Assembly: GCA_020719165.1 (NCBI GenBank)
Contig: DYQT01000003.1
Location: 1 to 42,701 of the forward strand
Origin: Draconibacterium orientale
GTDB lineage: Bacteria; Bacteroidota; Bacteroidia; Bacteroidales; FEN-979
Direction: 5' to 3'
Length of the DNA stretch: 42,701 nucleotides
Shown piece after piece: positions 15 to 37,512 of this stretch (position 1 is the stretch's first letter; each line of letters starts with the position of its first letter). Made by a program: the position numbers and the translations under genes. The notes under the pieces were generated by a model. That model was given only the letters and a program-made list of their open reading frames with translations. It was not told the DNA's origin and ran no database searches.

Positions 15-938
15 CTATTTGCCGAAATCTCGCATTGTTATTTGCCGTTTACAATCTTTTTTACTCAATCTTTTTATCATGATCAGCTCATACACGGCAT
101 ACATATAATGAGCCCATACACCGGCCAACATAACAAGCAGGGTTATAATCATCCACATCGGGGCGATCGGTGTCCATAGCTCACGGGAGGGGATTTCTGC
201 CTGGTAATACTGTTTAGGGACTCCCCAGTTAATTGTGTTTTGACCCTGAAGAAATCCGAATTTATCGTGTTCTTCGATTTTCGCGATCACCACAAGGTTG
301 CCCAATGAATCGCCGACAATTTCCTTTGGAAACTCCAAGGTTCCGACACCAGTTTCATCGAGGGCAATTTCACCGATTTTCAACAGACTGAAAAGCCTTG
401 GGATATAGATGATCACTGTTTCATTCGGGATGGCAACTGCTTCACCTTTTTCATTTTCCTGAGTGGCCGTTACTTTTAAAATTCTAAGGGAGTCTTCAAC
501 ATTGAACAAAAGTTTGATTTTTGCCGGTTTAGCCACCACAGAGGCTTCTGCCCAGGGATATTTATCAGTGCCAATGAAAGTTGCAGAATAGGAAACCAAC
601 CCCTCTTTATCAGCCGGAAAGTTTGAAATTGCGACTCTGCATGTGGCGATCCCTTCCTGGGTGGTAGAGAATTTTCCTAAACTCAGGTTTGTCTCCCCGT
701 TAGAGGCAGAAAAGGCTATTTGTGCGTTTTCAAGGGCCAGGGTAAAATCACCTTTTTTTATGGAAAGGACTGCACTTAGAATGACCGAATCGGAGTTACA
801 CAAATAATTCAGCGCCAATCGGGATTCAACCGGTAGTGCGAGAGAGTCTGTTTTTTCAGCGGCAAAAGAGTTCAATGGCAGCATGGCCATGGAAATCAAC
901 GTGACAAGAAAAACCGATATTACGATAACTCTTTTCAT
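15..938 (-). CDS. Membrane-anchored periplasmic beta-rich protein, last gene of cytochrome/NrfD locus
   Basis: I do not recognise this 307-residue protein as a named family. Seen: an N-terminal signal peptide (about residues 1-26, ending NSFA), a polar region of roughly 220 residues with alternating hydrophobic pattern suggesting Ig-like beta domains, and one strong transmembrane helix near residues 258-282 (PMWMIITLLVMLAGVWAH), followed by a short basic cytoplasmic tail (KRLSKKDCKRQ). It has no CXXCH haem motif and no Fe-S cysteine pattern. It starts 29 bp after the NrfD gene on the same strand, so it is very probably co-transcribed. Inference: an accessory or assembly subunit presenting a periplasmic domain next to the membrane complex. 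Its stop lies 15 bp from the window edge, so the operon may continue beyond. Confidence 0.7.
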   Translation of the reverse strand: MKRVIVISVFLVTLISMAMLPLNSFAAEKTDSLALPVESRLALNYLCNSDSVILSAVLSIKKGDFTLALENAQIAFSASNGETNLSLGKFSTTQEGIATCRVAISNFPADKEGLVSYSATFIGTDKYPWAEASVVAKPAKIKLLFNVEDSLRILKVTATQENEKGEAVAIPNETVIIYIPRLFSLLKIGEIALDETGVGTLEFPKEIVGDSLGNLVVIAKIEEHDKFGFLQGQNTINWGVPKQYYQAEIPSRELWTPIAPMWMIITLLVMLAGVWAHYMYAVYELIMIKRLSKKDCKRQITMRDFGK

Positions 939-967
939 AGGTGATAATGAGTAATTCCGGTGAATGA

Positions 968-2281
968 TTAAACTAAAACATCTTCTTTTTTATTTTCTCC
1001 CTGAGTTCCGACAAGCGGAACGATGGTAATAAACTTGGAGGCCAGGGTGAAAAGGAGACAAAAGATGGCAACACCAGCCGCGGTGAGACTCCATTCGACC
1101 CAGGTTGCCGAATAATTCAGCCATTCGGGTCGCGAATCCTGAATGGGCAGATAAGGAGATTCAAGTGTTGGAACGACAATGATATACCGGTTGAGCCACA
1201 AAGCAATGATGACAACCACGGCAGTAAGTGTGATGTTGGTTATGGTACGGAATTTGGCAATACCGATAACAATCAAGGGTAAAAGAACCCCCACATAATT
1301 TGAAAAGATAAATGGCCAGTAGAATTCTTTAAAGAGCAGTTGGATGAGTAATTCATCATTTTTTTCAGAGCCGTACCACTTCGTGAGATAATCGCTGAAG
1401 GTAAAATAGCCAAAAAAAGCAGCGAGTACCAGCATGATCACGCCTACCGACACGAAATGCTTTTTCGTTATGTATTCTTCAAGGTGGTAAACCTTTCTGA
1501 AAACCCACATGCAAACGATTAATACTGCACTCCCGGAATACACTGCGGCTATTACGAAGTAGGGCCCGAAGATGGTGCTGTGCCAGCCAGGTTGCAGGGT
1601 AACGCTGAAAATCCATGCCAATACCGAATAAACGATGATGGCAATTGCGATAACCATTGCTGCCATGATGTCGGTAGCCCTGTTTAATCGCTTTTGCTGT
1701 TCGGGCGAGCCATTGTATCCAAGTGCCAGAACTTTATACAATTTTTTTCGCCAATTGGGAAGCCGTAGCAGTTCATAATCCCTGAGGGTTGCCAGATCGC
1801 GCAATAAAGAGAGATAGAGGAAGATAAAACACCCAAAAATGTCTGTTGTGATCGCAATAACGTCCCAGGTAATTGGAGACTGAATTCTGCCAAATATAAC
1901 CAGGTAATGCAATTTATCGAGCCTTCCGATACAGAGCAGGATAAAGCACGGGCCAATCAGCAATGCGATGATGGTAATAAATTCGGCCATACGAATGATT
2001 GGTTTCCGCCATGCCGTTTTAAACAGATGGAGTGTTCCGGAGATGAGGGCGCCGGCATAACTAATTCCCATGAAGAAGATGAAGTTCACAATATAAACCC
2101 CCCATACCACATTATCGCGCATGCCTGTAACTTCGTGTCCGTTAATGACTTGTGCAAGAAAAGCGAAAAAGCCCAATATGATAACAGCTACCAGGAAAGC
2201 GAGCCATGCATAGCCATATATGGAAGTCCGCTCGAGTTGCGGAGCAAAGTCTTTTAATGAATTATTTTGTTGCAGTTCCAT
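968..2281 (-). CDS. nrfD: NrfD/PsrC-family membrane subunit (quinone-interacting)
   Basis: A polytopic protein of 437 residues with about nine or ten hydrophobic segments (for example residues 28-48, 62-84, 97-119, 209-229, 241-262, 279-299, 324-345, 352-370, 400-420). Length and topology fit the NrfD/polysulphide reductase PsrC family, which carries the quinone site in DmsABC-, Psr- and ACIII-type complexes and contains no cofactor. The early segments WGVYIVNFIFFMGISYAGAL and WRKPIIRMAEFITIIALL are typical of the family. Its ATG lies 2 bp after the stop of the four-cluster ferredoxin gene, which is the classical NrfC-NrfD pairing. Inferred role: exchange of electrons between menaquinone and the Fe-S/haem subunits encoded upstream. 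Confidence 0.9.
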   Translation of the reverse strand: MELQQNNSLKDFAPQLERTSIYGYAWLAFLVAVIILGFFAFLAQVINGHEVTGMRDNVVWGVYIVNFIFFMGISYAGALISGTLHLFKTAWRKPIIRMAEFITIIALLIGPCFILLCIGRLDKLHYLVIFGRIQSPITWDVIAITTDIFGCFIFLYLSLLRDLATLRDYELLRLPNWRKKLYKVLALGYNGSPEQQKRLNRATDIMAAMVIAIAIIVYSVLAWIFSVTLQPGWHSTIFGPYFVIAAVYSGSAVLIVCMWVFRKVYHLEEYITKKHFVSVGVIMLVLAAFFGYFTFSDYLTKWYGSEKNDELLIQLLFKEFYWPFIFSNYVGVLLPLIVIGIAKFRTITNITLTAVVVIIALWLNRYIIVVPTLESPYLPIQDSRPEWLNYSATWVEWSLTAAGVAIFCLLFTLASKFITIVPLVGTQGENKKEDVLV

Positions 2282-2283
2282 GG

Positions 2284-3246
2284 TTACGGGTTATTTTTTT
2301 TGCTATACGGAGTATCTTTATAGCGATCAATAATTTCCTGATCCATGTCGACAAAGCCTCTGTCAACTTCAAACTGACGGTCAACCGGAGGCAGATAATA
2401 AACGCATGGGCGTGTGCCAAGTGTTTCAAGATAGCGGTATCCTGCACGATCGTGAATTAGCTTGCTAAACTGATATGTTTCGGTACCGTTGGTCACGGTG
2501 TCTTCGTCAATGTCGCCAAAATAGATAACTCCCATGGGGCAGGCAGAGGCGCAATAGGGTATTTTACCAACCCGGATAAGGTCGGGGCAGAAATCACATT
2601 TTGAAACGGTACCCTCTTTTCCGGGGCTGCTGGCCTCTGGTGAATAGGGTTCTTTATCTTCATCGAATTCCGGGTAATGTTTCCAGGCAAACACGCGGGA
2701 AGAATAGGGGCATCCGGTCATACAGAATTTACAGCCGATGCAGCGTTCATTGTCGATGAGCACAATTCCGTCGGATCGTTTATAGGTAGCACCAACAGGG
2801 CAAACGCTCACACAGAGAGGATTGTCGCAATGGAAACAGGGTTTAGGGAACCAATAGGGCGCTGTTTTTTCAGAATCCTGGAGCAGATAGACCTTAATAA
2901 ACTCCTGCCCTTTAGGAAGATGATGTCCTTTCTGACATGCTTCCACGCATTTACGGGCATTTTTACATTTTCCAAGGTCAATGACCATCACAAATTTACG
3001 TCCGGGAATTCCGTTATGAGAATCTTCACGGGAAACGCGGGGCAATTTTAACAAACCCCGGTCAACCTCCATAATTTCGCCGTTGGTGGTAAGAACTTTT
3101 ACTTTTTCACCGGATTCTGAAGCTGATGTATCAACATAGGCAGCAACAAGACCACCGCCCAGAGCTGCCCCGGCGCCTGCTATCAACCCTTTTTTCAAGA
3201 ATTGACGGCGTGAATTTTTCTGGCTCTTATTCAATTCTTCTTCCAC
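2284..3246 (-). CDS. TAT-exported 4Fe-4S ferredoxin subunit (NrfC/DmsB/PsrB type)
   Basis: A 320-residue electron-transfer subunit. A twin-arginine-like leader (SRRQFLKKG followed by a glycine/alanine-rich hydrophobic stretch) places it on the outer face of the inner membrane. Four cysteine groups are visible: CKNARKCVEACQKGH, CFHCDNPLCVSVCPVGA, CIGCKFCMTGCPYSS, and CDFCPDLIRVGKIPYCASAC. This is the four-cluster arrangement of DmsB/NrfC/PsrB/TtrB proteins. It sits between the cytochrome b gene (10 bp) and the NrfD gene (2 bp). In known complexes this subunit links the quinone-site subunit with a catalytic molybdoprotein. No such catalytic gene is present here, so its partner is probably one of the multihaem cytochromes of the same operon (inference). 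Confidence 0.9.
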   Translation of the reverse strand: MEEELNKSQKNSRRQFLKKGLIAGAGAALGGGLVAAYVDTSASESGEKVKVLTTNGEIMEVDRGLLKLPRVSREDSHNGIPGRKFVMVIDLGKCKNARKCVEACQKGHHLPKGQEFIKVYLLQDSEKTAPYWFPKPCFHCDNPLCVSVCPVGATYKRSDGIVLIDNERCIGCKFCMTGCPYSSRVFAWKHYPEFDEDKEPYSPEASSPGKEGTVSKCDFCPDLIRVGKIPYCASACPMGVIYFGDIDEDTVTNGTETYQFSKLIHDRAGYRYLETLGTRPCVYYLPPVDRQFEVDRGFVDMDQEIIDRYKDTPYSKKNNP

Positions 3247-3256
3247 TTTTTAATTA

Positions 3257-3880
3257 TTAGTGAGATTCGTGGTAACCATTGATCATGCTTTTAAAGTTGC
3301 TTGTAGGGGTTTTTCCGATGGTGCAAAAATAGACATGAACAAACATGATGATGCTGATACCAAATCCCGCGGTGATGTGAAGCAGGTCGGTCAGGTCAAG
3401 TCCGCTGATATTAAATATGCTGTAAACCGTCATCTCAGGATAAAGAAGACCCCATCCTGAAATAATCACAAATGGGACAAACCCGTACATAAGAACCACA
3501 TACGTAACCTGCTGCAGGGGGTTGAATTTACTTTCTTCATTAACCGGGAATGGAGCATCTTCTTTTTTAAATATTCCGATCGTATAGTATTTGAATTGTT
3601 TCATCAGCCGGTCAAAAAAGCCTTTAACAGGGATTACATAATAGGCTCCGTTGGGGGTAAAGAGGTTTCCAAGAAAAAAGAGGCCATAATTTATTGTAAG
3701 AAAAATTCCTGCAATATTATGGATGGATACTGCAGCATTGAATTTTACCACAGTCTGAGGATTTGAAAACTGGATACTTAATCCGGTTATGATTAAAAGA
3801 AGGCAGAGAAGGGCATTTGTCATATGCCAGATCCTGATCCACACAGGATACAAATAGAGTTGTTCAGTTTGATGCTTCAT
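3257..3880 (-). CDS. Cytochrome b subunit (FdnI/thiosulphate reductase-like, b561 fold)
   Basis: This 207-residue protein has four predicted membrane helices, the size and layout of formate dehydrogenase gamma / Ni-Fe hydrogenase cytochrome b subunits. Candidate haem-b histidines are in helix 1 (WIRIWHMTNALL), helix 2 (AVSIHNIAGIF) and helix 4 (DLLHITAGFGISIIMFVHVYF). It lies 8 bp after the heptahaem cytochrome gene and 10 bp before the ferredoxin gene. Having both a cytochrome b and an NrfD subunit in one locus is notable, because most reductases use only one of them. This suggests two membrane modules, or a Cbc-like quinone:cytochrome oxidoreductase. Family assignment is by topology and histidine pattern only. 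Confidence 0.85.
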   Translation of the reverse strand: MKHQTEQLYLYPVWIRIWHMTNALLCLLLIITGLSIQFSNPQTVVKFNAAVSIHNIAGIFLTINYGLFFLGNLFTPNGAYYVIPVKGFFDRLMKQFKYYTIGIFKKEDAPFPVNEESKFNPLQQVTYVVLMYGFVPFVIISGWGLLYPEMTVYSIFNISGLDLTDLLHITAGFGISIIMFVHVYFCTIGKTPTSNFKSMINGYHESH

Positions 3881-3888
3881 TTTTTGCT

Positions 3889-4914
3889 TTATTTTTTTAT
3901 GCGCAGAGCCGCATGGATGATTATTACCAAAATTGTAAGTCCGAATATTATCAGGCTGATGATGTTAAGGGTATTGCTTTTGTCTGGTCCGATCGAGGTT
4001 GAATCGCCCATCAGGAGGCCTTTGATAACACCTTCTTTTTGAATTTTTTCGCTAACCTGATACTTATATAGAGAGGCATAGAGGATGGAGTTTTTCGAAT
4101 GGCAGGATTCACATTTTCTGACGGCATCTTTTTTAGAAACCACAAGATGAGCCACGACCAGGGTGTCTTCGTTACGGGCATGACATTCGATGCACCGGAC
4201 ATTGGTAAAGTGGGATGCCTGGTTGGGCAGCCATTCATGTTTACTTAAAATATTGGGTTGGGCCTTGTTGGTAAGCAATTGGTAATTTTGCAAATCCCCG
4301 TGACAGTTGAGACAAATCATATTGTCATAGGTTATTGTCTCTTTAAGATTCTCATTTGAGCGGGCATTTATTTTATATTCATGGGCATCGTGGCACATCC
4401 AGCATGTAAAATCCTCATTGTGTTTTAAAGAATGAACACTGGCCAGGAAGGCGGTATCGATTTTTTCAAATTCAAACATCGCATATTTTTCATCACCTCC
4501 GTGGCAATCGATGCAGTTGGCGATGGCCTCCATGCGAAGATTTCCGGCGTGGGGAAAGGTTTCATAATCTTCAGAATGGCAATCGGTACATTTGAATTCA
4601 CGGTGGTTTGAAACGTAGTATAAATCACGGTTTTTAACCAATTCCGTGTACATTTTCTTAGTCACTGTTTTTTCGGAATCCGGGTTTTCGTAAGAGTATT
4701 TCGACTGACCATGGCAGCTGAAACATTTCTCATTTTCAGCAGCATTTTTAAATTTTGAAAGATCTATTTTGGAAGGTGTTTCCGGCTCGGTTTGGTTGTT
4801 ATTATTTACCGGAGAAGAGGTACCGGATAATTTGATCAGTGTGAATGCCAGCAGGCATAACAGCATTAATAAAATAACAACCCAGGCAGGACGGATATTG
4901 GCTTTATTCATCAT
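3889..4914 (-). CDS. Membrane-anchored heptahaem c-type cytochrome
   Basis: A protein of 341 residues with seven CXXCH haem-binding motifs: CFSCH, CTDCH, CIDCH, CWMCH, CLNCH, CIECH and CESCH. An uncleaved or signal-anchor helix lies at residues 10-27 and a second helix at the C-terminus (LNIISLIIFGLTILVIIIHA). The bulk is therefore periplasmic and held to the inner membrane at both ends. Several histidines outside the motifs (for example in YYVSNHREF, SVHSLKH, SKHEW) could be distal ligands. It begins the distal tight block of the operon, with the cytochrome b following after 8 bp. Inferred function: collection of electrons from the quinone-site subunits and transfer to the soluble or outer-membrane cytochromes encoded upstream. 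The reaction partner is not deducible. Confidence 0.9.
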   Translation of the reverse strand: MMNKANIRPAWVVILLMLLCLLAFTLIKLSGTSSPVNNNNQTEPETPSKIDLSKFKNAAENEKCFSCHGQSKYSYENPDSEKTVTKKMYTELVKNRDLYYVSNHREFKCTDCHSEDYETFPHAGNLRMEAIANCIDCHGGDEKYAMFEFEKIDTAFLASVHSLKHNEDFTCWMCHDAHEYKINARSNENLKETITYDNMICLNCHGDLQNYQLLTNKAQPNILSKHEWLPNQASHFTNVRCIECHARNEDTLVVAHLVVSKKDAVRKCESCHSKNSILYASLYKYQVSEKIQKEGVIKGLLMGDSTSIGPDKSNTLNIISLIIFGLTILVIIIHAALRIKK

Positions 4915-4950
4915 AGTTCACAAAAAGTTAACGGAGTTTGTCGGGAAAAG

Positions 4951-4992
4951 AAAATGGGTGCAGGCAGGAAGAATCCTGCCAACACCCATTTT
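4951..4992 (-). terminator. Rho-independent terminator / attenuator inside the cytochrome operon
   Basis: A strong two-part hairpin: AAAATGGGTG (4951-4960) pairs with CACCCATTTT (4983-4992) and GGCAGGA (4963-4969) pairs with TCCTGCC (4974-4980). On the minus strand it is followed by TTTCTTTT. It lies between the soluble cytochrome c gene and the heptahaem gene, in a 105-bp gap. It may reduce read-through, so that the upstream genes are expressed more than the membrane subunits. Confidence 0.75.
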
Positions 4993-5019
4993 GTGCATTA
5001 TTTTTGAATCATTTTGTAA

Positions 5020-5436
5020 TTACTTTTTCATTGTGCGCATAAAAGCAACAAGGGCCCAACGGTCGCTGGCTTCCGGAATTTTCTTTTCGTAGCCGGGCAT
5101 GTCATCGCGGCCTTTGTTGGTCCGATAAAAAATTTCGCCATCTGTTCCTGCCTGGAAGGCGGCACTTGAAAAGTCGCCCGACTCTGTCTTCAGAGAGGCT
5201 GCTTTTGGTCCATCGCCCAGGCCTTTGCTGCCGTGGCATGATTTGCAATGTTTTGCCCAAAGTTCTTTACCTGTGGCTAAGTCTGCTTTTGCAGGGGCTT
5301 TCATGGCTTTATCTTTATCGGGTACCGGCCATGGTTTAGCTTTTGCCTGTTGTGCCTGAAGTGAATTTCCAAACAGGAAAACCACAGCGATAACTGCAGC
5401 CATCATGATTGATGCTAATTTTTGTGTTGTTTTCAT
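5020..5436 (-). CDS. Periplasmic monohaem cytochrome c (class I)
   Basis: A 138-residue protein with a cleavable signal peptide (cleavage near FGNSLQAQ) and one haem motif, CKSCHGSKGLGDGPKA, typical of small class I cytochromes. A likely distal methionine is in DDMPGYEKKI, followed by the C-terminal helix motif WALVAFMRTM. It is a mobile periplasmic electron carrier. It is encoded 37 bp after the DUF5777 gene and followed by a strong hairpin terminator, so it could be made in larger amounts than the membrane subunits downstream. Inferred role: shuttle between the inner-membrane heptahaem/ferredoxin module and either a terminal enzyme elsewhere or the outer-membrane lipoprotein cytochromes. 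Confidence 0.93.
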   Translation of the reverse strand: MKTTQKLASIMMAAVIAVVFLFGNSLQAQQAKAKPWPVPDKDKAMKAPAKADLATGKELWAKHCKSCHGSKGLGDGPKAASLKTESGDFSSAAFQAGTDGEIFYRTNKGRDDMPGYEKKIPEASDRWALVAFMRTMKK

Positions 5437-5473
5437 TGTAATTTGAATTTAGGTTAAATAATTAGTTATTTGA

Positions 5474-6424
5474 TTAAAAGCCCCATAAACGGGTCATGTT
5501 AAATCCAAGGAGAATAAAGCCATTAAAAAAGTTGTTGGTGTTGTGCATCACGATCTCCGATGGTAAAATTCCCTGGGCGGCAGAGATGTACATATGAAAA
5601 GCATGCGTACTGGTTGAAACTTCCCAGCCAAGAGAGATATTGGCATAAGGTGCCTTATTTGTGGGAATTTCGAGCCAGTCATAGCCATCTCTGACAATAA
5701 AAGCAGGATCGTAATTGATAATGATGGGCTGTGTGTAGGCAATTACGATTGATGACTGCGGACTTACTTTGACCCGTCCAAGGAGAGAAAATGCGAAGGC
5801 ATCATTTCTGGCCGTAGAATCGACGCTCTGGTCAACCCTGTTGAAATGGGTGTAGCTGAGTCCCAATTGGGCTGCAAACATGTTGTTGAACCGGCGGGCG
5901 AACATAAACTCGTTGTAATATGCAAAACGATCAATAAACTTATAGTCGGTTCCGTAAGTGGTTTTGTTGGTGGCATTGAGCGACAGATTAAAGAAATAGG
6001 CAATGGTAAGGGGGAATCCCTCTTTGCGCTGGTGCATGAAAACATATTTCACCTGTAAGTCTTGCAACCTGCTGTTTTTGGTTGTTCCCAATCCGACAAG
6101 CAAGTTTTTGGTTATACTGAAGTTCAATCCGATGCGAATGTTGGAAGCGCCCCATAGCCCTGCCAGATCTGACCAGCCATTCTGGATGGTTCCGAATCGA
6201 TGCTGGAGGACGAATTCGAGGGTTTTTGCAGGAGGTATCGCCACGGTCATGTTATCCATACAGATGCCACTTTCAAAAGCGGCTTTGGCCAGCGGTTTTT
6301 GGGTAACTTCCGGTTCTGCGGGGATAGTATCCTGTGCAAGTGAAGTTCCCATCGCAGAGATCAGCATGATAACCCCGAGTAAAAGTTTTTTCATGATCGA
6401 TATTATTGATTGCATTTTTTTCAT
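5474..6424 (-). CDS. DUF5777-family beta-barrel protein (outer membrane)
   Basis: A 316-residue protein with a signal peptide and alternating beta-strand pattern, matching what I know of the DUF5777 family of Bacteroidota: a conserved start resembling LEFVLQHRFGTIQNGWSDL followed by LWGASNIRIGLNFSITKNLLVGLG, and a C-terminal strand ending in aromatic residues (LGFNMTRLWGF), as in outer-membrane barrels. An alternative start at the eleventh residue (MKKLLLGV, 6394) gives a more standard signal peptide. It lies 31 bp after the monohaem lipoprotein gene. The family function is unknown to me; in my memory it often neighbours cytochrome c genes. It is much smaller than the MtrB-type barrels that sheath multihaem cytochromes, so a conduit role is only a hypothesis. 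Confidence 0.8.
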   Translation of the reverse strand: MKKMQSIISIMKKLLLGVIMLISAMGTSLAQDTIPAEPEVTQKPLAKAAFESGICMDNMTVAIPPAKTLEFVLQHRFGTIQNGWSDLAGLWGASNIRIGLNFSITKNLLVGLGTTKNSRLQDLQVKYVFMHQRKEGFPLTIAYFFNLSLNATNKTTYGTDYKFIDRFAYYNEFMFARRFNNMFAAQLGLSYTHFNRVDQSVDSTARNDAFAFSLLGRVKVSPQSSIVIAYTQPIIINYDPAFIVRDGYDWLEIPTNKAPYANISLGWEVSTSTHAFHMYISAAQGILPSEIVMHNTNNFFNGFILLGFNMTRLWGF

Positions 6425-6455
6425 TTTTAGGGTGAATTATATTATCATACCGGAG

Positions 6456-6836
6456 TTAGTTATTTTTAGCTCCTTCTTTGATCCAGTTATAAACAATGGC
6501 ATTGTCGGTAGCATTTCCATAGTTAACCATCGATCCGCCCGACAGCAGACAAGTGTATAATATACTGGTTTCAGGGCTTAATGCAACGACCATGTTGTTA
6601 TCAAAAAGACTTTGATATGATTTTCCGCTTCTCAGGTCGGGGGCAACCGAGCCATTATGGCAACCAGCACAGCTGGTGTTAAAAAACGGTTGGACTTTAA
6701 GAGAAAAGCTTGTCGAATCACCGGGAGGAGGTGGAGGCGGGGGTGAATCGGGCTGGATAGTAGCATATTCACAAGCGCCAAACAGAAAAATTCCCATCAG
6801 GATGGCAATCAGATTGATCAATTTATTTTTATGCAT
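6456..6836 (-). CDS. Lipoprotein monohaem cytochrome c
   Basis: About 126 residues from the chosen ATG at 6836 (MHKNKLINL); an earlier in-frame ATG at 6860 adds eight residues that do not improve the signal peptide. The lipobox is LFGAC, followed by a proline-rich linker (eight prolines around residues 30-39) that would act as a spacer from the membrane. The single haem motif is CAGCHNGS, and the rest resembles the small cytochrome-c-like lipoproteins of Bacteroidota (SPETSILYTCLLSGG, IVYNWIKEGAKNN). It is the first gene after the terminator hairpin at 6927-6960, so it probably begins its own transcription unit. I could not find a TAnnTTTG box in the short upstream gap. Confidence 0.85.
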   Translation of the reverse strand: MHKNKLINLIAILMGIFLFGACEYATIQPDSPPPPPPPGDSTSFSLKVQPFFNTSCAGCHNGSVAPDLRSGKSYQSLFDNNMVVALSPETSILYTCLLSGGSMVNYGNATDNAIVYNWIKEGAKNN

Positions 6837-6926
6837 ATTTTTAAGATTTAGGAGTTGCATTCTTGTTTATTCCACAGCTGCTCAGAGCACTATAGGAGCA
6901 AGAAATTTTTTATATGTATTTAACCT

Positions 6927-6960
6927 AAAAAGGCTTCAGGGATTCACCTGAAGCCTTTTT
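6927..6960 (-). terminator. Perfect 14-bp hairpin terminator after the hexahaem gene
   Basis: AAAAAGGCTTCAGG (6927-6940) and CCTGAAGCCTTTTT (6947-6960) form a perfect 14-bp stem with a 6-nt loop. Runs of T occur on both strands, so it can work in either direction. It lies 18 bp beyond the stop of the hexahaem lipoprotein gene and separates that gene from the remaining eight of the locus. Confidence 0.88.
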
Positions 6961-6978
6961 TTTCAACAATGAATATGA

Positions 6979-8325
6979 TTACAAATTGTCATTCAACGCC
7001 TTGATTGAATTTGCTAAGAGTGCTCTAACATAATTGGTGTTGTGAATTCCAAGGCTGTATTCCCTTAAGCAGAACTGGAAGTTGATCAACGCACCCGTTT
7101 GAACCATCAATAATTTCGGGAACTTTGGTTTTGCCATATTCGTGGCGCTGGTGTTATAAGGATCTCTCCAATATCCGGAAGGATTTGTAGATGAGCTGTA
7201 AATATCGAGGTAGCCATCATAGTTACCGGTAGTTAAACCAGCCCAGAGATTTGCAGAGGTAGCATCAGCGTGAAGAATATCATGGCCGCCGCCGCATTCG
7301 TTAATTTTGGCGGCTAATTGGTTGAGCAGGTCCTTAATTTCGGTGCGGGGGTTTTTCCATTTTGAAGAATTGGCATCGATCGGGAGTGTACCGTGGCAGG
7401 AGGTGGTGTTACAGCCGTTGAAATTCCAGGTTGTACCTGAACTCAGGGCTGATTCTTTAGCATTGCGCATGTTGAAGGCATGTCCGCCGGCAATCCCGGT
7501 CATCGGATTGGCCATATGGCAGTCCTGACAAGTAGCAACGGATGTGTGCACAGAGTTTTCGTAGGGGACATCTCCGGCGTATTCAATTCCACCCTGACCC
7601 GCATAAACAGCGCTTACGGTGCCATAGTGAACGTGCATTCTGTAGGAGGGCTTCAGCATGGTGTTTTTTGCACCGGCTGCACTGTCATACATAACGGCTT
7701 TTGGGAACATTTTAACAGAGTCGTAATTGAGCAAACGTCCGGCAGGGTCGTTGCCACAGGTAAGCGGACGGGGCTGGTGACATTTAACGCATAAATTGCT
7801 TGATCCGCCACCCTGGGCCAGGTTGATGGTTTTAGTGCCGGCCCACATGGTCATGGGAACCGGGGCAACGGAAGTGAGGGCAATGTCGGACATACCATAG
7901 GTGGTATGCAGGCTGCTGTGGCAGGTATAACAACCGATTTCGCCAATGGCGTTGGCTGCATTGGTAACATAATCATTCGCCCATTTACCGTTTACAAAGG
8001 AAAATGTAGCGGGTGTGTTGTTTGCACATACATAAACGTATGCTTTTTGTTCGTGGCATGGGCCACATGTAACATTACCGGCCTCTTCGAAGGCAGCTTC
8101 GCCCCATGAGTGCTTTGAAAGCTCAAATTCTGTGGCAATTGCATCCACAACAGCTTTGGCATGACACTGTTTGCAAGTTTCACTGGCATCTTTACCATCA
8201 GTACCATCTTTACCTGCAGGGCCGGCAATCCCCTGAGGGCCCTCCTTGGTGCAGGAGGAAAGCATTAAACATGTCGCCACGACCATCAATCCGGCAGCAT
8301 AAAATAGTTTTTGTAAATTTTTCAT
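6979..8325 (-). CDS. Hexahaem c-type cytochrome lipoprotein with collagen-like stalk
   Basis: A 448-residue lipoprotein. Residues 1-24 are a lipoprotein signal peptide (LMLSSC, lipidated Cys25). Immediately after comes a short collagen-like run of six Gly-X-Y triplets (GPQGIAGPAGKDGTDGKD, residues 29-46), and then the haem domain. Haem motifs are CKQCH, CGPCH, CYTCH, CVKCH and CQDCH, plus a sixth with CX4CH spacing (CNTTSCH). The C-terminal 120 residues lack haem motifs. It is the promoter-proximal gene of the cytochrome locus, preceded by two FNR-like boxes and followed by a terminator. Catalytic function is unknown; it could be a terminal electron-accepting cytochrome at the outer membrane or a reductase. 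Surface exposure is not shown by the sequence. Confidence 0.88.
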   Translation of the reverse strand: MKNLQKLFYAAGLMVVATCLMLSSCTKEGPQGIAGPAGKDGTDGKDASETCKQCHAKAVVDAIATEFELSKHSWGEAAFEEAGNVTCGPCHEQKAYVYVCANNTPATFSFVNGKWANDYVTNAANAIGEIGCYTCHSSLHTTYGMSDIALTSVAPVPMTMWAGTKTINLAQGGGSSNLCVKCHQPRPLTCGNDPAGRLLNYDSVKMFPKAVMYDSAAGAKNTMLKPSYRMHVHYGTVSAVYAGQGGIEYAGDVPYENSVHTSVATCQDCHMANPMTGIAGGHAFNMRNAKESALSSGTTWNFNGCNTTSCHGTLPIDANSSKWKNPRTEIKDLLNQLAAKINECGGGHDILHADATSANLWAGLTTGNYDGYLDIYSSSTNPSGYWRDPYNTSATNMAKPKFPKLLMVQTGALINFQFCLREYSLGIHNTNYVRALLANSIKALNDNL

Positions 8326-8455: not shown

Positions 8456-8490
8456 CTGATATATCTCAATCCATGATTGACATATATCAA
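8456..8490 (-). promoter_or_regulatory. Tandem FNR-like operator boxes upstream of the hexahaem gene
   Basis: Two 14-bp dyads resemble the FNR consensus TTGATNNNNATCAA: CTGATATATCTCAA (8456-8469, two mismatches) and TTGACATATATCAA (8477-8490, one mismatch). Their centres are 21 bp apart, two helical turns, placing both on the same DNA face. They lie about 130-165 bp upstream of the hexahaem cytochrome ATG. An FNR-type regulator gene lies upstream at 9483-10178. Binding is inferred. Confidence 0.55.
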
Positions 8491-34536: not shown

Positions 34537-35775
34537 TTAATTGTTTTTACGATAAGAGAGCAATCGCTGATCGCCACTGATCTTGCGTTTTTCCGTCAGA
34601 TCCTGCGACATTTCGAGTGTTCCCAGGTATTCGCCATTTTCGTTGCGAAGGGCGAAATATTCGATGTGGATAAACTTTCCGCCCATTTGAATCCAGAAAG
34701 GGGCGCTGTCGGCTTTGCCACTTTTAAAATCAGCCACAATCTGATCAACAACATGAACACTTGAAGGCGGATGACACATCCGCACATCACGGCCCAAAAT
34801 TGCCCGGTTACGGTCGAAAATCCGCTCTTTTCCCTGGGAGAAATATTTAACCTTGTCGTTTCGGTCAACAAATGTGAGATCGACAGGCAGGGTGTTGAGT
34901 ATGGAAAGCAGCTCCTCAGAGGTGAATTTTCCGCTGGGAAGATTGATGGAGCCCTCTTCGGCTGAGGTTTCTTCTATAATTTCCACCCCTTGTGGTTTCC
35001 AGGCGATGGTTGGATCATACAGGCAATAGCCTATTTCATTGGTTTGCCGGTAGATTTGATACCAGTCTGTTTCTGTAAGTTTATCAAGGGCCATCGGAAA
35101 GAGAATCTCCTCTTCTTTCATGATCATGTCGGTAATGGCTTTGGCCGCCGGGGCCAGGTGGAGTTCCACCTTCATCTGGATCATCTCCGGGGTAAATTCG
35201 CCCGGCATGTTGAGCGCATTTATGGCATTCTTAAGCAGGTCGCGGGTTTCGTCGTGTTTGCCCCACATAACTGTTGGCGGGCCTGTGATTCCGTATTTCT
35301 CAAGAAATGGAAAAAGGAGGTTTTCTTTGCGGCGATAGTGTTTGTCAACATCCATCAGTTTGTTGAAAAGACCTTTCAACGTATTCAGGAGCTTTTCTGG
35401 TTCTGATCCTGAAAGCCCGGTTTCCGTCAGGGCAAAAAGTGCATGAAGTTCTCTGACAACCTTTTCCAATTCACGGTTTTCTCCTTTAAAGGTGTCGACC
35501 GGATGGCCTGGCGCCACAATCTTCATTCCCGAAAGGTCAATATGCCCTTCCAATGCCTGGCTGTGGATGTCGCATAGCCGCAAAACCTCCGATTCGGGAA
35601 GACCTTCGCTGATCAGTTCCTGTTCTACCTCAACTACTTCACCATAGGGTATTTTGGTCAGAAGTTCAATCATGCGGGCTTTCACCGCTTCCGGTGCAAC
35701 GCCATCGTGCAGTTGCAGAATCATGTGTTTAAGCAGATCTTTTCTGCTCCGGGAGTTGTTTATTATTTCGCTCAT
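34537..35775 (-). CDS. DUF438 / hemerythrin / PAS protein
   Basis: A 412-residue cytosolic protein with three parts: DUF438 (about 10-80; KARMIELLTKIPYGEVVEVEQELISEGL), a hemerythrin-type four-helix bundle (about 105-245) with the di-iron ligand pattern in ELHALF, HYRRKENLLFPFLEKYG, MWGKHDETRD and ELHLAPAAKAITDMIMKEEE, and a C-terminal PAS domain (about 290-400; DLTFVDRNDKVKYFSQGKER, DVRMCHPPSSV). The architecture is a known oxygen/NO-related sensor or scavenger type. It belongs to the Rrf2-led set and follows the cupin gene by 57 bp, with a palindrome in the gap. Confidence 0.93.
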   Translation of the reverse strand: MSEIINNSRSRKDLLKHMILQLHDGVAPEAVKARMIELLTKIPYGEVVEVEQELISEGLPESEVLRLCDIHSQALEGHIDLSGMKIVAPGHPVDTFKGENRELEKVVRELHALFALTETGLSGSEPEKLLNTLKGLFNKLMDVDKHYRRKENLLFPFLEKYGITGPPTVMWGKHDETRDLLKNAINALNMPGEFTPEMIQMKVELHLAPAAKAITDMIMKEEEILFPMALDKLTETDWYQIYRQTNEIGYCLYDPTIAWKPQGVEIIEETSAEEGSINLPSGKFTSEELLSILNTLPVDLTFVDRNDKVKYFSQGKERIFDRNRAILGRDVRMCHPPSSVHVVDQIVADFKSGKADSAPFWIQMGGKFIHIEYFALRNENGEYLGTLEMSQDLTEKRKISGDQRLLSYRKNN

Positions 35776-35805
35776 AAAAAGTTAGTGTTTATATCATTGA
35801 CGTGG

Positions 35806-35825
35806 CCCCAGACTAAAGTCTGGGG
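35806..35825. repeat. Small palindromic element B
   Basis: CCCCAGACTAAAGTCTGGGG, a 9-bp stem with an AA apex, between the cupin (35833) and DUF438 (35775) genes. Confidence 0.7.
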
Positions 35826-35832
35826 GTGAGGG

Positions 35833-36162
35833 CTATCCTTTAATCATCGTTAGTACCATTTTGAACTTTTCCAGCGCATTTACTGCGTGAGGAATTCCGG
35901 CCGGCATGATGACAGCCTCGCCGGTGGATAAAATAAATTGTTCTTCGTTGATGATAATTTCGGCTTTTCCTTCAATCACCTGCAACAGCGCGTCGTAGGG
36001 TGCTGAATGGGTGCTCAGGCGCTGGCCATGGTCGAATGAGAACAGGGTTACCGTGCCAACCGGACGGTCAATAACCCGTTTGCTGATGATTCCCCCGGTT
36101 GAGTATTCTACTTTTTCGGGAAACCGGAACACGTTTGAGTGTTCAAAAATGCTTTTTTCCAT
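35833..36162 (-). CDS. Cupin-domain protein of the Rrf2 gene set
   Basis: A 109-residue single-cupin protein. Motif 1 is FDHGQRLSTHSAPYDALLQVIEGKAEIIINEE, motif 2 GEAVIMPAGIPHAVNALEKFKMVLTMI. Metal-ligand residues appear mostly intact (two His and a His in PHAVNA). Such cupins are usual companions of DUF438/hemerythrin and Rrf2 genes in anaerobes. It lies 40 bp after the 4Fe-4S gene and 57 bp before the DUF438 gene. Confidence 0.88.
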   Translation of the reverse strand: MEKSIFEHSNVFRFPEKVEYSTGGIISKRVIDRPVGTVTLFSFDHGQRLSTHSAPYDALLQVIEGKAEIIINEEQFILSTGEAVIMPAGIPHAVNALEKFKMVLTMIKG

Positions 36163-36178
36163 AGTTGTTTGTTTTTAT

Positions 36179-36198
36179 CACCTAACTGAAGTCCGGTG
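36179..36198. repeat. Small palindromic element C
   Basis: CACCTAACTGAAGTCCGGTG, a degenerate form of element A with the same CACC...GGTG ends, followed by ATGGTTAAG (compare TTGGTTAATG after A). It lies between the 4Fe-4S and cupin genes, its downstream flank covering the 4Fe-4S gene stop. Confidence 0.6.
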
Positions 36199-36202
36199 AT
36201 GG

Positions 36203-37063
36203 TTAAGTCCAGTCTTCTTCAATAATTTCTCCCTGAACGCTAATAATCGCCTTTTTAATGGGAACATTCCGGCCTGCATTGGTACGTGCCGACTGGGCCA
36301 TGTGAAGCAGGCTGCCGCAGCAAGGAACTTCCATCATCACCACGGTGAGCGAGTTGATTTTGGTATCAGCAATCATGGAGGTTAATTTCTGGAGGTATGA
36401 TTCTTTGTTGCTGTCGAGTTTCGGACAGGCAATTGCCAGGGATTTGCCTTTGAGAAACCGGGAATGGAAATTTCCCATGGTAAAGGCGGCGCAGTCGGCG
36501 GCAAGCACCACATCGGCATTTTTGAAGTAGGATGCCTGCGGGTTTAGTAAATGTAGCTGAACCGGCCACTGGCGCAATTCGGATGGAATTTCCTGTTGAA
36601 CCGCTTTGCTGTGCGTTTCAACAGGTGCCGGAACAACGCTTTCAACGCGGAAATCCCTGGCCATTGAGCCAGGGCACCCGCATTCCCCATTTGAATGTTG
36701 TTCTTTTTTTTCAGGACTCATTGTAATGTTGTTTTCTTTTAAATAATCGATCGCTTGTTGCAAAAATTCGGTTTCGTTGTGGTCGCGCAGGTGATCCAGA
36801 TGGGCGAGAATGGTGTTCCTTCCTTTTGGAACCATGATTTCCATCACCTTGCGTTCATCATAGGGAGCTGCCTCGCGTTCAATGATGTCTATGGCACCTT
36901 CGGGGCAATGACCGATGCATGCACCCAGTCCATCACAAAACAGATCGCTGATCAGTCTGGCTTTCCCGTCAATGAGCTGCATGGCTCCTTCATGACAATT
37001 TGGAATGCAAATGCCACAGCCATTGCATTTTTCTTCATCAATCTGAATAATTTTCCGCTTCAT
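36203..37063 (-). CDS. 4Fe-4S binding protein of the Rrf2/hybrid-cluster-type stress set
   Basis: A protein of 286 residues. The first cluster motif is complete (CNGCGICIPNCHEGA). The second reads FCDGLGACIGHCPEGAI, with Leu where the second cysteine would be, as I recall is usual for this family. Farther on come GECGCPGSMAR, a C-terminal domain with VLAADCAAF and IACPKLDSNKE, and VPCCGSLLHMAQ, all probable additional cluster or metal sites. It follows the Rrf2 gene by 50 bp and precedes the cupin gene. The likely role is electron transfer in anaerobic or nitrosative stress response. The enzyme it serves is not in the window. Confidence 0.9.
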   Translation of the reverse strand: MKRKIIQIDEEKCNGCGICIPNCHEGAMQLIDGKARLISDLFCDGLGACIGHCPEGAIDIIEREAAPYDERKVMEIMVPKGRNTILAHLDHLRDHNETEFLQQAIDYLKENNITMSPEKKEQHSNGECGCPGSMARDFRVESVVPAPVETHSKAVQQEIPSELRQWPVQLHLLNPQASYFKNADVVLAADCAAFTMGNFHSRFLKGKSLAIACPKLDSNKESYLQKLTSMIADTKINSLTVVMMEVPCCGSLLHMAQSARTNAGRNVPIKKAIISVQGEIIEEDWT

Positions 37064-37075
37064 ATTTATATATGT

Positions 37076-37091
37076 AATTAGGTATTTGATT
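37076..37091 (-). promoter_or_regulatory. Second Rrf2-operator-like site (before the 4Fe-4S gene)
   Basis: AATTAGGTATTTGATT matches 12 of 16 positions of the palindrome before the rrf2 gene (37518-37533) and lies 12 bp before the 4Fe-4S gene start. Weak evidence; could be chance in AT-rich DNA. Confidence 0.3.
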
Positions 37092-37113
37092 GCCTCATTG
37101 TGGGCAAAAAAAT

Positions 37114-37512
37114 TTAGAGGTACGATTGCAATGTTTGTTCGTTTAAAAACTTTTTGAATTCAGCGGTTAGTTTATTCACAACGGTTCCCATCAAACATTT
37201 GTCGAATCCACACAGATCGTAAGATAACGGGCATTCCCCTATGTCAAGCTGTCCCTCGATAGATTGATAAATATCCAGCAGACTGACATTTTTGGGTTCC
37301 ATTTTCATCGAAAATCCACCTGAAGGACCCCTTACCGATTTCAGCATGTCGTTCTTAACCAGGCGTTGTAAAACTTTTGCGATATGATTCTTTGAAAATC
37401 CTGTAATTTCGGCGATCTTTACCGCATTGATTCCATTTTCAGATCGCGCAATCAAAACCATGCTGTGAATTGCGATTGAAGAGGCTTCGGATAAGGCAAA
37501 AATCTTTGACAT
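37114..37512 (-). CDS. Rrf2-family regulator with three cysteines (NsrR/IscR-like)
   Basis: A 132-residue protein with the winged-helix motif AVKIAEITGFSKNHIAKVLQRLVKNDMLKSVRG and wing PSGGFSM. Three cysteines (C94, C101, C106; ECPLSYDLCGFDKCL) match the cluster site of NsrR/IscR/RirA, here with CX6CX4C spacing. Rrf2 proteins of this form use a 4Fe-4S or 2Fe-2S cluster to sense NO, oxygen or Fe-S status. It heads the stress gene set (4Fe-4S, cupin, DUF438-hemerythrin, DUF2249) and is preceded by a palindrome overlapping its likely transcription start, so it probably represses itself and the set. Confidence 0.93.
   Translation of the reverse strand: MSKIFALSEASSIAIHSMVLIARSENGINAVKIAEITGFSKNHIAKVLQRLVKNDMLKSVRGPSGGFSMKMEPKNVSLLDIYQSIEGQLDIGECPLSYDLCGFDKCLMGTVVNKLTAEFKKFLNEQTLQSYL

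Follow-up and report, generated by a model that had tools for sequence, protein, structure and literature searches.

Nine genes on the minus strand, filling positions 15–8325 of a 42,701-nucleotide stretch of Draconibacterium orientale DNA (contig DYQT01000003.1; hereafter the window, meaning that whole stretch, to which all numbering refers), form a conserved cassette that is best read as a system of the alternative complex III (ACIII)/NrfD kind with an outer-membrane end; its chemistry, direction and acceptor are predicted from sequence. With the genes named P1 to P9 from the left edge, we lean, on balance, towards an anaerobic respiratory line under predicted FNR control, in which an ACIII relative composed of P3, P2 and P1 would oxidise menaquinol and electrons would pass via cytochromes to a barrel in the outer membrane and a cytochrome at the cell surface. 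Its 15 predicted c-type haems likely lead to the outer membrane in place of a dedicated reductase, and the transfer may be extracellular or interspecies. An earlier interpretation made from this DNA alone (the sequence-only reading) had proposed a quinone:cytochrome complex beside outer-membrane lipoprotein cytochromes and lacking a catalytic subunit, a proposal that the homology and gene context described here tend to support. The observations are gene order, conservation, the haem-ligand pattern, gene fusions, an FNR box in a fixed place, and nearest relatives in which no reductase gene was seen next door.

Conservation of the nine-gene cassette

Domain scans and the list of open reading frames (ORFs) bore out much of the sequence-only reading, namely an NrfD, a cytochrome b, an outer-membrane-type barrel (assigned to DUF5777) and four c-type cytochromes, all on a single strand. 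Its total of 15 haems also stands if a CX4CH motif in P9 is counted, but the order it gave, 6+1+1+7, should read 7+1+1+6 (P5, P6, P8 and P9). When named genome contigs were scanned with P2, 139 relatives were found, and the best 80 of these were kept as loci L035–L114, a set that was chosen by P2 and is therefore silent on how often P2 stands alone. By record title, 79 of the 80 loci belong to Bacteroidota, mostly Bacteroidales, and isolate names point to lake, Black Sea, groundwater and vent origins. The exception, L052 (SACF01000001.1), is titled Alphaproteobacteria; it holds the cassette with housekeeping neighbours and an NrfD 83% identical to P2, and the record is probably a mislabelled metagenome-assembled genome (MAG).

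Conserved synteny, a check that the sequence-only reading had proposed, was found: all nine genes stand in the window's order in 27/80 loci, and the eight genes from P8 to P1 are present in 52/80, with P6 at either of two positions. Adjacency was highest for P3–P2 (79 loci) and P2–P1 (74, plus two in which the genes are fused), followed by P4–P3 (64), P5–P4 (63) and P8–P7 (63). Profiles matched ORFs of the 80 loci for P3 in 79, P1 in 74, P6 in 71, P7 in 67, P5 and P4 in 65 each, P8 in 63, P9 in 47 and the neighbouring regulator P10 in 54; some of the gaps are contig ends and others are real losses. The genes are real and their grouping is not due to chance. Gene fusions were found for P2–P1 (L109 and L112) and P5–P4 (L073 and L092), and relatives of P6 are fused to the C-terminal half of P1 in the sister operons described below; because these genes are fused, P2–P1, P5–P4 and P6–P1 likely mark subunit contacts.

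Within the genus, 14 of the 18 other species have an NrfD at ≥83% identity. The P1 profile matched 67/247 genomes of an even draw of the order at E ≤ 1e-10, many of these matches covering the C-terminal half only and coming from sister operons. In a phylum sample with at most eight candidates scored per genome, 7/296 genomes had a P1 match, the window's own included, and each of the other six carries a high-scoring P7 within 5 kb.

A probable quinol-oxidising core related to ACIII

P2 (968–2281) is an NrfD/ActC-type membrane subunit with 10 hydrophobic segments and a predicted quinone site. It was assigned to NrfD by Pfam (PF03916, E = 1.4e-30), and its best match among solved structures is ActC of ACIII (6f0k_C, E = 1.2e-53). 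When the ActC residues listed in the available part of PMC8076601 were mapped onto P2, Ser164, Asp169, Arg119, Glu122, Arg196 and Asp197 were kept in 81/81 rows and the gate residue Arg395 in 79/81, while the further channel residues Y176, E394, H97 and H247 are altered. In a tree of 121 NrfDs, for which ActF served as an outgroup of one long branch, the cassette, oxidase-type and isolate-like proteins form one clade (support 1.0) that stands beside ActC (0.96).

P3 (2284–3246) is a 320-residue iron-sulfur subunit with 4Fe-4S domains only. The earlier description of a four-cluster ferredoxin exported by twin-arginine translocation (TAT) holds for the four-cluster type and the TAT-type start; the TAT model scored below its cut-off, however, and 15 cysteines are kept in 85/85 rows while the sixteenth, C281, is found in just 20/85, so that one of the four clusters lacks a cysteine ligand. 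P1 (15–938), the predicted NrfD partner subunit, has a signal peptide, two immunoglobulin (Ig)-like domains and a C-terminal membrane helix with invariant W, G and H; R252, W255, W275 and H277 are invariant in 50 rows. Its AlphaFold2 model is of high quality (pLDDT, the predicted local distance difference test, 90). No family scored above cut-off for P1, its profile gave weak or unrelated matches among solved structures, and a fold search gave generic Ig-like matches with TM-scores of ~0.2–0.3 by query length. P6 (5020–5436) is a predicted periplasmic mono-haem cytochrome c of class I, with one CXXCH and a Met113 conserved in 86/86 rows.

Sister operons encode NrfDs ~32–37% identical to P2 in the arrangement iron-sulfur protein, NrfD, and a mono-haem cytochrome c joined in one protein to the C-terminal half of P1. 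Ten such operons were labelled by the similarity of their NrfD; oxidase genes stand alongside six of the ten and a NarG-like gene alongside one. Sco and CoxI–CoxIII–CoxII follow the module in L151, L152, L154, L173 and L174, in some with a small membrane protein between; L178 has a cbb3-type oxidase downstream, in L177 the contig ends at Sco, a NarG-like molybdoenzyme and a cytochrome c follow in L153, and neither an oxidase nor a NarG-like gene was recognised in L175 and L179. In Bacteroidales, the operons beside haem-copper oxidase genes (aa3-type or other) constitute an ACIII-like module of reduced composition.

Because P2 is an ActC-type NrfD, groups with ActC-related proteins in the tree and has sister operons beside oxidase or NarG-like genes, P3–P2–P1–P6 is most likely a molybdopterin-free quinol:cytochrome c oxidoreductase, as judged from homology and gene context. 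The earlier statement that neither a molybdenum enzyme nor ACIII is present thus understates the link to ACIII.

The remaining inner-membrane pair consists of P4 (3257–3880), a b561-type cytochrome b (E = 6.9e-25) with two predicted b haems, and P5 (3889–4914), a c3/c7-type heptahaem cytochrome c with hydrophobic segments at its N- and C-terminus. His 19, 54, 168 and 182 of P4 are kept in 64–65/65 rows. All 65 P5 matches have exactly seven CXXCH motifs, as P5 does, and seven further histidines besides H334 are invariant in 64/64 rows.

No reductase gene seen beyond the left edge in relatives

Base 1 of the window is base 1 of its contig (C375), so DNA farther left is unreadable here, and we therefore turned to the relatives. 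The gene after P1 is riboflavin kinase in 25 of the 80 loci, P6 in 25 and a NapC/NrfH-like multihaem cytochrome in 7 (on the opposite strand in one of these), and the locus ends there in 8; the rest have single genes, mostly unannotated, and 6/80 have no separate P1. Riboflavin kinase, identified by a Pfam scan of the L037 copy and by clustering for the others, lies on the same strand and is found in all of L035–L052, the nearest relatives, that reach so far. A reductase gene adjoining position 1 on the left would have told against the sequence-only reading, but we recognised no catalytic subunit beyond P1 in the 80 loci, where most single-locus neighbours carry no annotation, and we rejected a reductase past the left edge, since riboflavin kinase or P6 mostly stands there in relatives.

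The outer-membrane set

P7 (5474–6424) belongs to DUF5777 (E = 4.3e-63). Its model (pLDDT 86) is an outer-membrane beta-barrel in which we counted 12 long main strands by eye, and the best structural matches are the channels FapF, KdgM, COG4313 and NanC. Its profile found no match among solved structures, and none of its VIA-align rows was recognised as an electron-conduit porin, although one may be among them.

P8 (6456–6860), a single-haem lipoprotein with a weak CBB3-type match, is followed by P7 in 63/63 loci that have P8. Among 70 P8 profile matches the haem motif is CX2CH in 50, CX4CH in 14 and CX3CH in one, with none found in five; Met111 is present in 39/45 closer rows, and several others have a His near there. 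P9 (6979–8325) is a lipoprotein with five CXXCH and one CX4CH, the two Cys and the His of the latter being kept in 50/50 rows, and 49 of 54 P9 profile matches have either this set or six CXXCH. Six further histidines outside the haem motifs are kept in 43–50 of 50 rows, a bis-His pattern; with a conserved second His for each haem, P9 looks like a wire and not like an active site. P9 has a weak match to MtrC/MtrF domain II/IV (PF22113), which recurred at E ≤ 0.01 in all 16 members scanned of 47 picked, while its profile gave weak or unrelated matches among solved structures. L035, L037 and L040 each hold an additional, divergent P9 gene between P10 and P9.

The P8–P7 pair is joined to three NrfD lineages: that of the cassette, that of the complete or near-complete genomes L115–L120, and an ACIII-type operon in L181. 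In the last (L181:4052–13244), P6, P7 and P8 genes head an operon with a hexahaem ActA-like protein, an ActB-like protein, an NrfD and a protein that matches ActF weakly and carries a mono-haem tail. Twelve further P7 loci were opened, among them L189 (P8–P7–P6), L190 (EB_dh–P8–P7) and L191 (EB_dh–P8–P7–P6). Proteins with an EB_dh domain, which we take to be of b-haem type, directly precede P8–P7 at L116:3553–4788 (between P9 and P8), L117:14440–15777, L118:14204–15595, L190:6460–7692 and L191:6988–8319. At L120:12661–14407 and L190:10316–12107, a small cytochrome c and a short COX1-family protein lie downstream of P8–P7 in a NorCB-like layout, both labels coming from a Pfam scan of the L120 pair.

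Regulation and electron input

An FNR-type palindrome (TTGA-N6-TCAA) lies at 8477–8490, upstream of P9. The same motif was found within 300 bp upstream in 24/30 operons that begin with P9, compared with 10/478 unassigned genes and 7/456 inner cassette genes as controls. The window as a whole holds three such motifs against 1.93 expected, that is, no rarer than chance, so the evidence lies in the conserved place of the box. P10 (9483–10178, minus strand), a Crp/FNR-family regulator, has Cys 11, 14 and 111 in 58/58 rows and at least three cysteines within the first 45 residues in 52/58. It thus shows the N-terminal and central cysteines of an FNR next to an FNR box, and may bind a cluster.

In seven of the 80 loci (L087, L089, L090, L093, L098, L104 and L111) a FadE-type acyl-CoA dehydrogenase is encoded upstream of P8, directly adjoining it in three; six of the seven also hold a CCG protein, four an EtfD-like protein and four ETF subunits. 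The window's genome carries an EtfD-like/CCG/FadE trio on another contig, 70–78% identical. Upstream genes for an [FeFe] hydrogenase A6 and a NuoF-like protein were found in L110 and, by clustering, in L114. The window's genome also encodes haem-copper oxidases at two loci (cbb3 type at one of them) and has an ACIII-like locus. Given these loci, the organism likely respires oxygen when possible and would use the cassette line without oxygen. In the ACIII-like locus (L163, G000:C340), the ActB-like gene is present as two overlapping frames near 1722–1794.

Elsewhere in the window (34537–37512), a hemerythrin/PAS-like protein, a ferredoxin and an Rrf2-like regulator, named by sight from the ORF list, lie close together and are possibly a nitrosative-stress group.

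Proposed respiratory line and alternatives

By homology, P2, constantly paired with P1, would bind menaquinol on its periplasmic face, and electrons would run through the P3 clusters to P6; sister operons fuse P6 to P1 and have oxidase genes alongside. P4–P5, a di-haem b/heptahaem c unit, may add either another quinone-linked entry or a step through b haems, plus a periplasmic relay; this is the least certain of the inner-membrane steps. P8, at the outer membrane beside the P7 barrel, would then hand electrons to P9, and P10 would turn the cassette on when oxygen is absent. The direction of flow, the crossing of the outer membrane and the acceptor are inferred.

Several observations weigh against this proposal. 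Of the four quinone-site residues of ActC, two differ in P2, where Cys stands for His139 and Ile for Asp253 in 79/81 rows, and a clade of cassette NrfDs alone has a support of just 0.59. A barrel of 12 strands leaves little room for a cytochrome; P9 of the window scores 28.1 against the PF22113 cut-off of 30 and was not found in 33/80 loci, some of them cut by contig ends. The FNR box is present in just 4/17 divergent operons that begin with P8, 3/9 with another gene upstream and 8/21 lone P9 genes, and the 30 P9-first loci are mostly close relatives, so their sites are not independent. DUF5777 barrels occur in 110/296 genomes of the phylum sample, only seven of which have a P1 match. Finally, nine low-scoring barrel loci (L192–L200) have a YceI protein in 9/9, and none of the surrounding genes shown encodes an NrfD (9/9). 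Given barrels with YceI and without NrfD, the P7–P8 pair is not confined to extracellular respiration, which lowers a purely extracellular reading. These nine sets, with a P8-profile match (26–69 bits) in 8/9 and a Rieske lipoprotein in L198, form an outer-membrane redox group spread over Bacteroidota.

The alternative that survives best, although we consider it unlikely, is a local outer-membrane reductase, in which P7 is an entry channel for a small compound, either oxidised or lipid-like, that P8 and P9 reduce or handle, so that no electron exits the cell; in a variant, the EB_dh or YceI proteins found beside the barrel elsewhere act instead of P9. However, with a conserved second His at all six P9 haems, no open catalytic haem is apparent, and domain scans found no substrate-binding domain in P8 or P9. 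Reverse flow, from an extracellular or periplasmic donor through P9/P8 to menaquinone, on the pattern of Qrc or iron oxidation, seems improbable to us: NrfD complexes can run towards quinone (Qrc, according to the available part of PMC8076601) and the Cys at the position of ActC His139 makes the site unlike that of ActC, but seven of ten sister modules stand beside oxidase or NarG-like genes, fitting quinol oxidation, and the FNR box and nearby acyl-CoA oxidation genes fit electron disposal. Least probable is a pair of independent systems, a P3–P2–P1–P6 complex and an unrelated outer-membrane set that are merely co-regulated, for although P5–P4, P3–P2–P1 and P8–P7 travel as separate modules in L086, L091, L158 and L159 and P8–P7 is also found without the complex, eight genes stay together in 52/80 loci and P8–P7 joins three NrfD lineages, an ACIII-type operon among them.

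We thus retain the anaerobic line ending at the outer membrane. A bolder version, which we offer tentatively and with more doubt than conviction, is that Bacteroidota possess a mini-ACIII without molybdopterin, a core of iron-sulfur protein, NrfD, P1 and P6 whose end is exchangeable between a haem-copper oxidase, a NarG-type enzyme and an FNR-controlled outer-membrane gate (12-strand barrel, single-haem lipoprotein and hexahaem surface wire), the last amounting to extracellular respiration of its own kind that disposes of acyl-CoA oxidation electrons in anoxic waters. The absence of a terminal enzyme also finds a possible explanation, the core resembling a quinol:cytochrome c module whose ends are interchangeable (oxidase, NarG-like and outer-membrane genes are each found beside it). 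Should the outer-membrane end function in the proposed way, extracellular acceptors could be respired by uncultured Bacteroidota, many of which come from lakes to judge by record names, and the cassette would probably be overlooked when electron-transfer genes are surveyed with Mtr, Pcc or Cyc2 models.

Comparison with known systems

Our literature search, which left most subscription journals and preprints outside its scope, found no paper on DUF5777 and, by titles, none describing the nine-gene set. The nearest accounts, each known from part of its source, are as follows. For Melioribacter roseus, an NrfCD without a molybdenum subunit was proposed to deliver electrons to multihaem cytochromes of the periplasm and perhaps also to an Fe(III) reductase in the outer membrane (PMC3534657); the part available names two subunits but neither a barrel, a lipoprotein nor a P1 partner. 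Among Planctomycetota and KSB1 MAGs, one is reported to have a porin–cytochrome complex with an NrfD cluster downstream, and two to have clusters that lack a molybdenum subunit (PMC10732223); these differ from the cassette in phylum and gene set, and the likeness is one of description in the text available. Putative porin–cytochrome genes without homology to known ones have been described from Bacteroidetes MAGs of a humic lake, as far as the available part of PMC6344600 goes.

DsrMKJOP and Qrc resemble the cassette in having an iron-sulfur–NrfD pair without a classical reductase subunit, and DsrO and DsrP are the best NCBIfam matches. Both labels were rejected, as the scores fall below the curated cut-offs (DsrO 170.4 of 200 bits and DsrP 82.9 of 350; QrcC 117.6 of 400 and QrcD 36.9 of 570). 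Unlike DsrMKJOP, the cassette has no DsrK-type gene.

MtrCAB and Pcc place a wide porin around a multihaem wire. The cassette shares with them and with Cyc2 an outer-membrane barrel adjoining cytochromes, and P9 has the weak MtrC/MtrF match, but its barrel has 12 strands and a single-haem partner. Whereas Cyc2 fuses a mono-haem domain to its porin, P8 and P7 are separate genes, with no P8–P7 fusion in the 80 loci.

The closest likeness is to ACIII (ActABCDEF), which shares with the cassette an ActC-type NrfD, an iron-sulfur protein and multihaem and mono-haem cytochromes, with oxidase genes beside many sister operons. The P6 profile matches the ActE position at 50–60 bits in 7/7 ACIII loci (L166–L172), so that the cassette has the ActE-type mono-haem feature; two of these loci run into NarG-like genes, two into oxidase genes, and three end or show neither. 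In contrast to ACIII, the cassette lacks the molybdopterin-like ActB domain (no ActB-type gene, with this domain fused to iron-sulfur domains, was found within the cassette of the 27 full-order loci), an ActD-sized gene and the second NrfD, ActF, the window having one NrfD only; ActF-position matches are weak in the ACIII loci themselves, and L089, L090 and L095 have an extra weak NrfD/iron-sulfur pair beside the cassette. An incomplete cysteine motif is found on both sides, the first in P3 and, in Rhodothermus marinus ActB, apparently another. The cassette in turn has P1, the cytochrome b and the outer-membrane set, and two changed quinone-site residues. ACIII research thereby gains a natural relative of smaller size that lacks ActF and the molybdopterin-like subunit.

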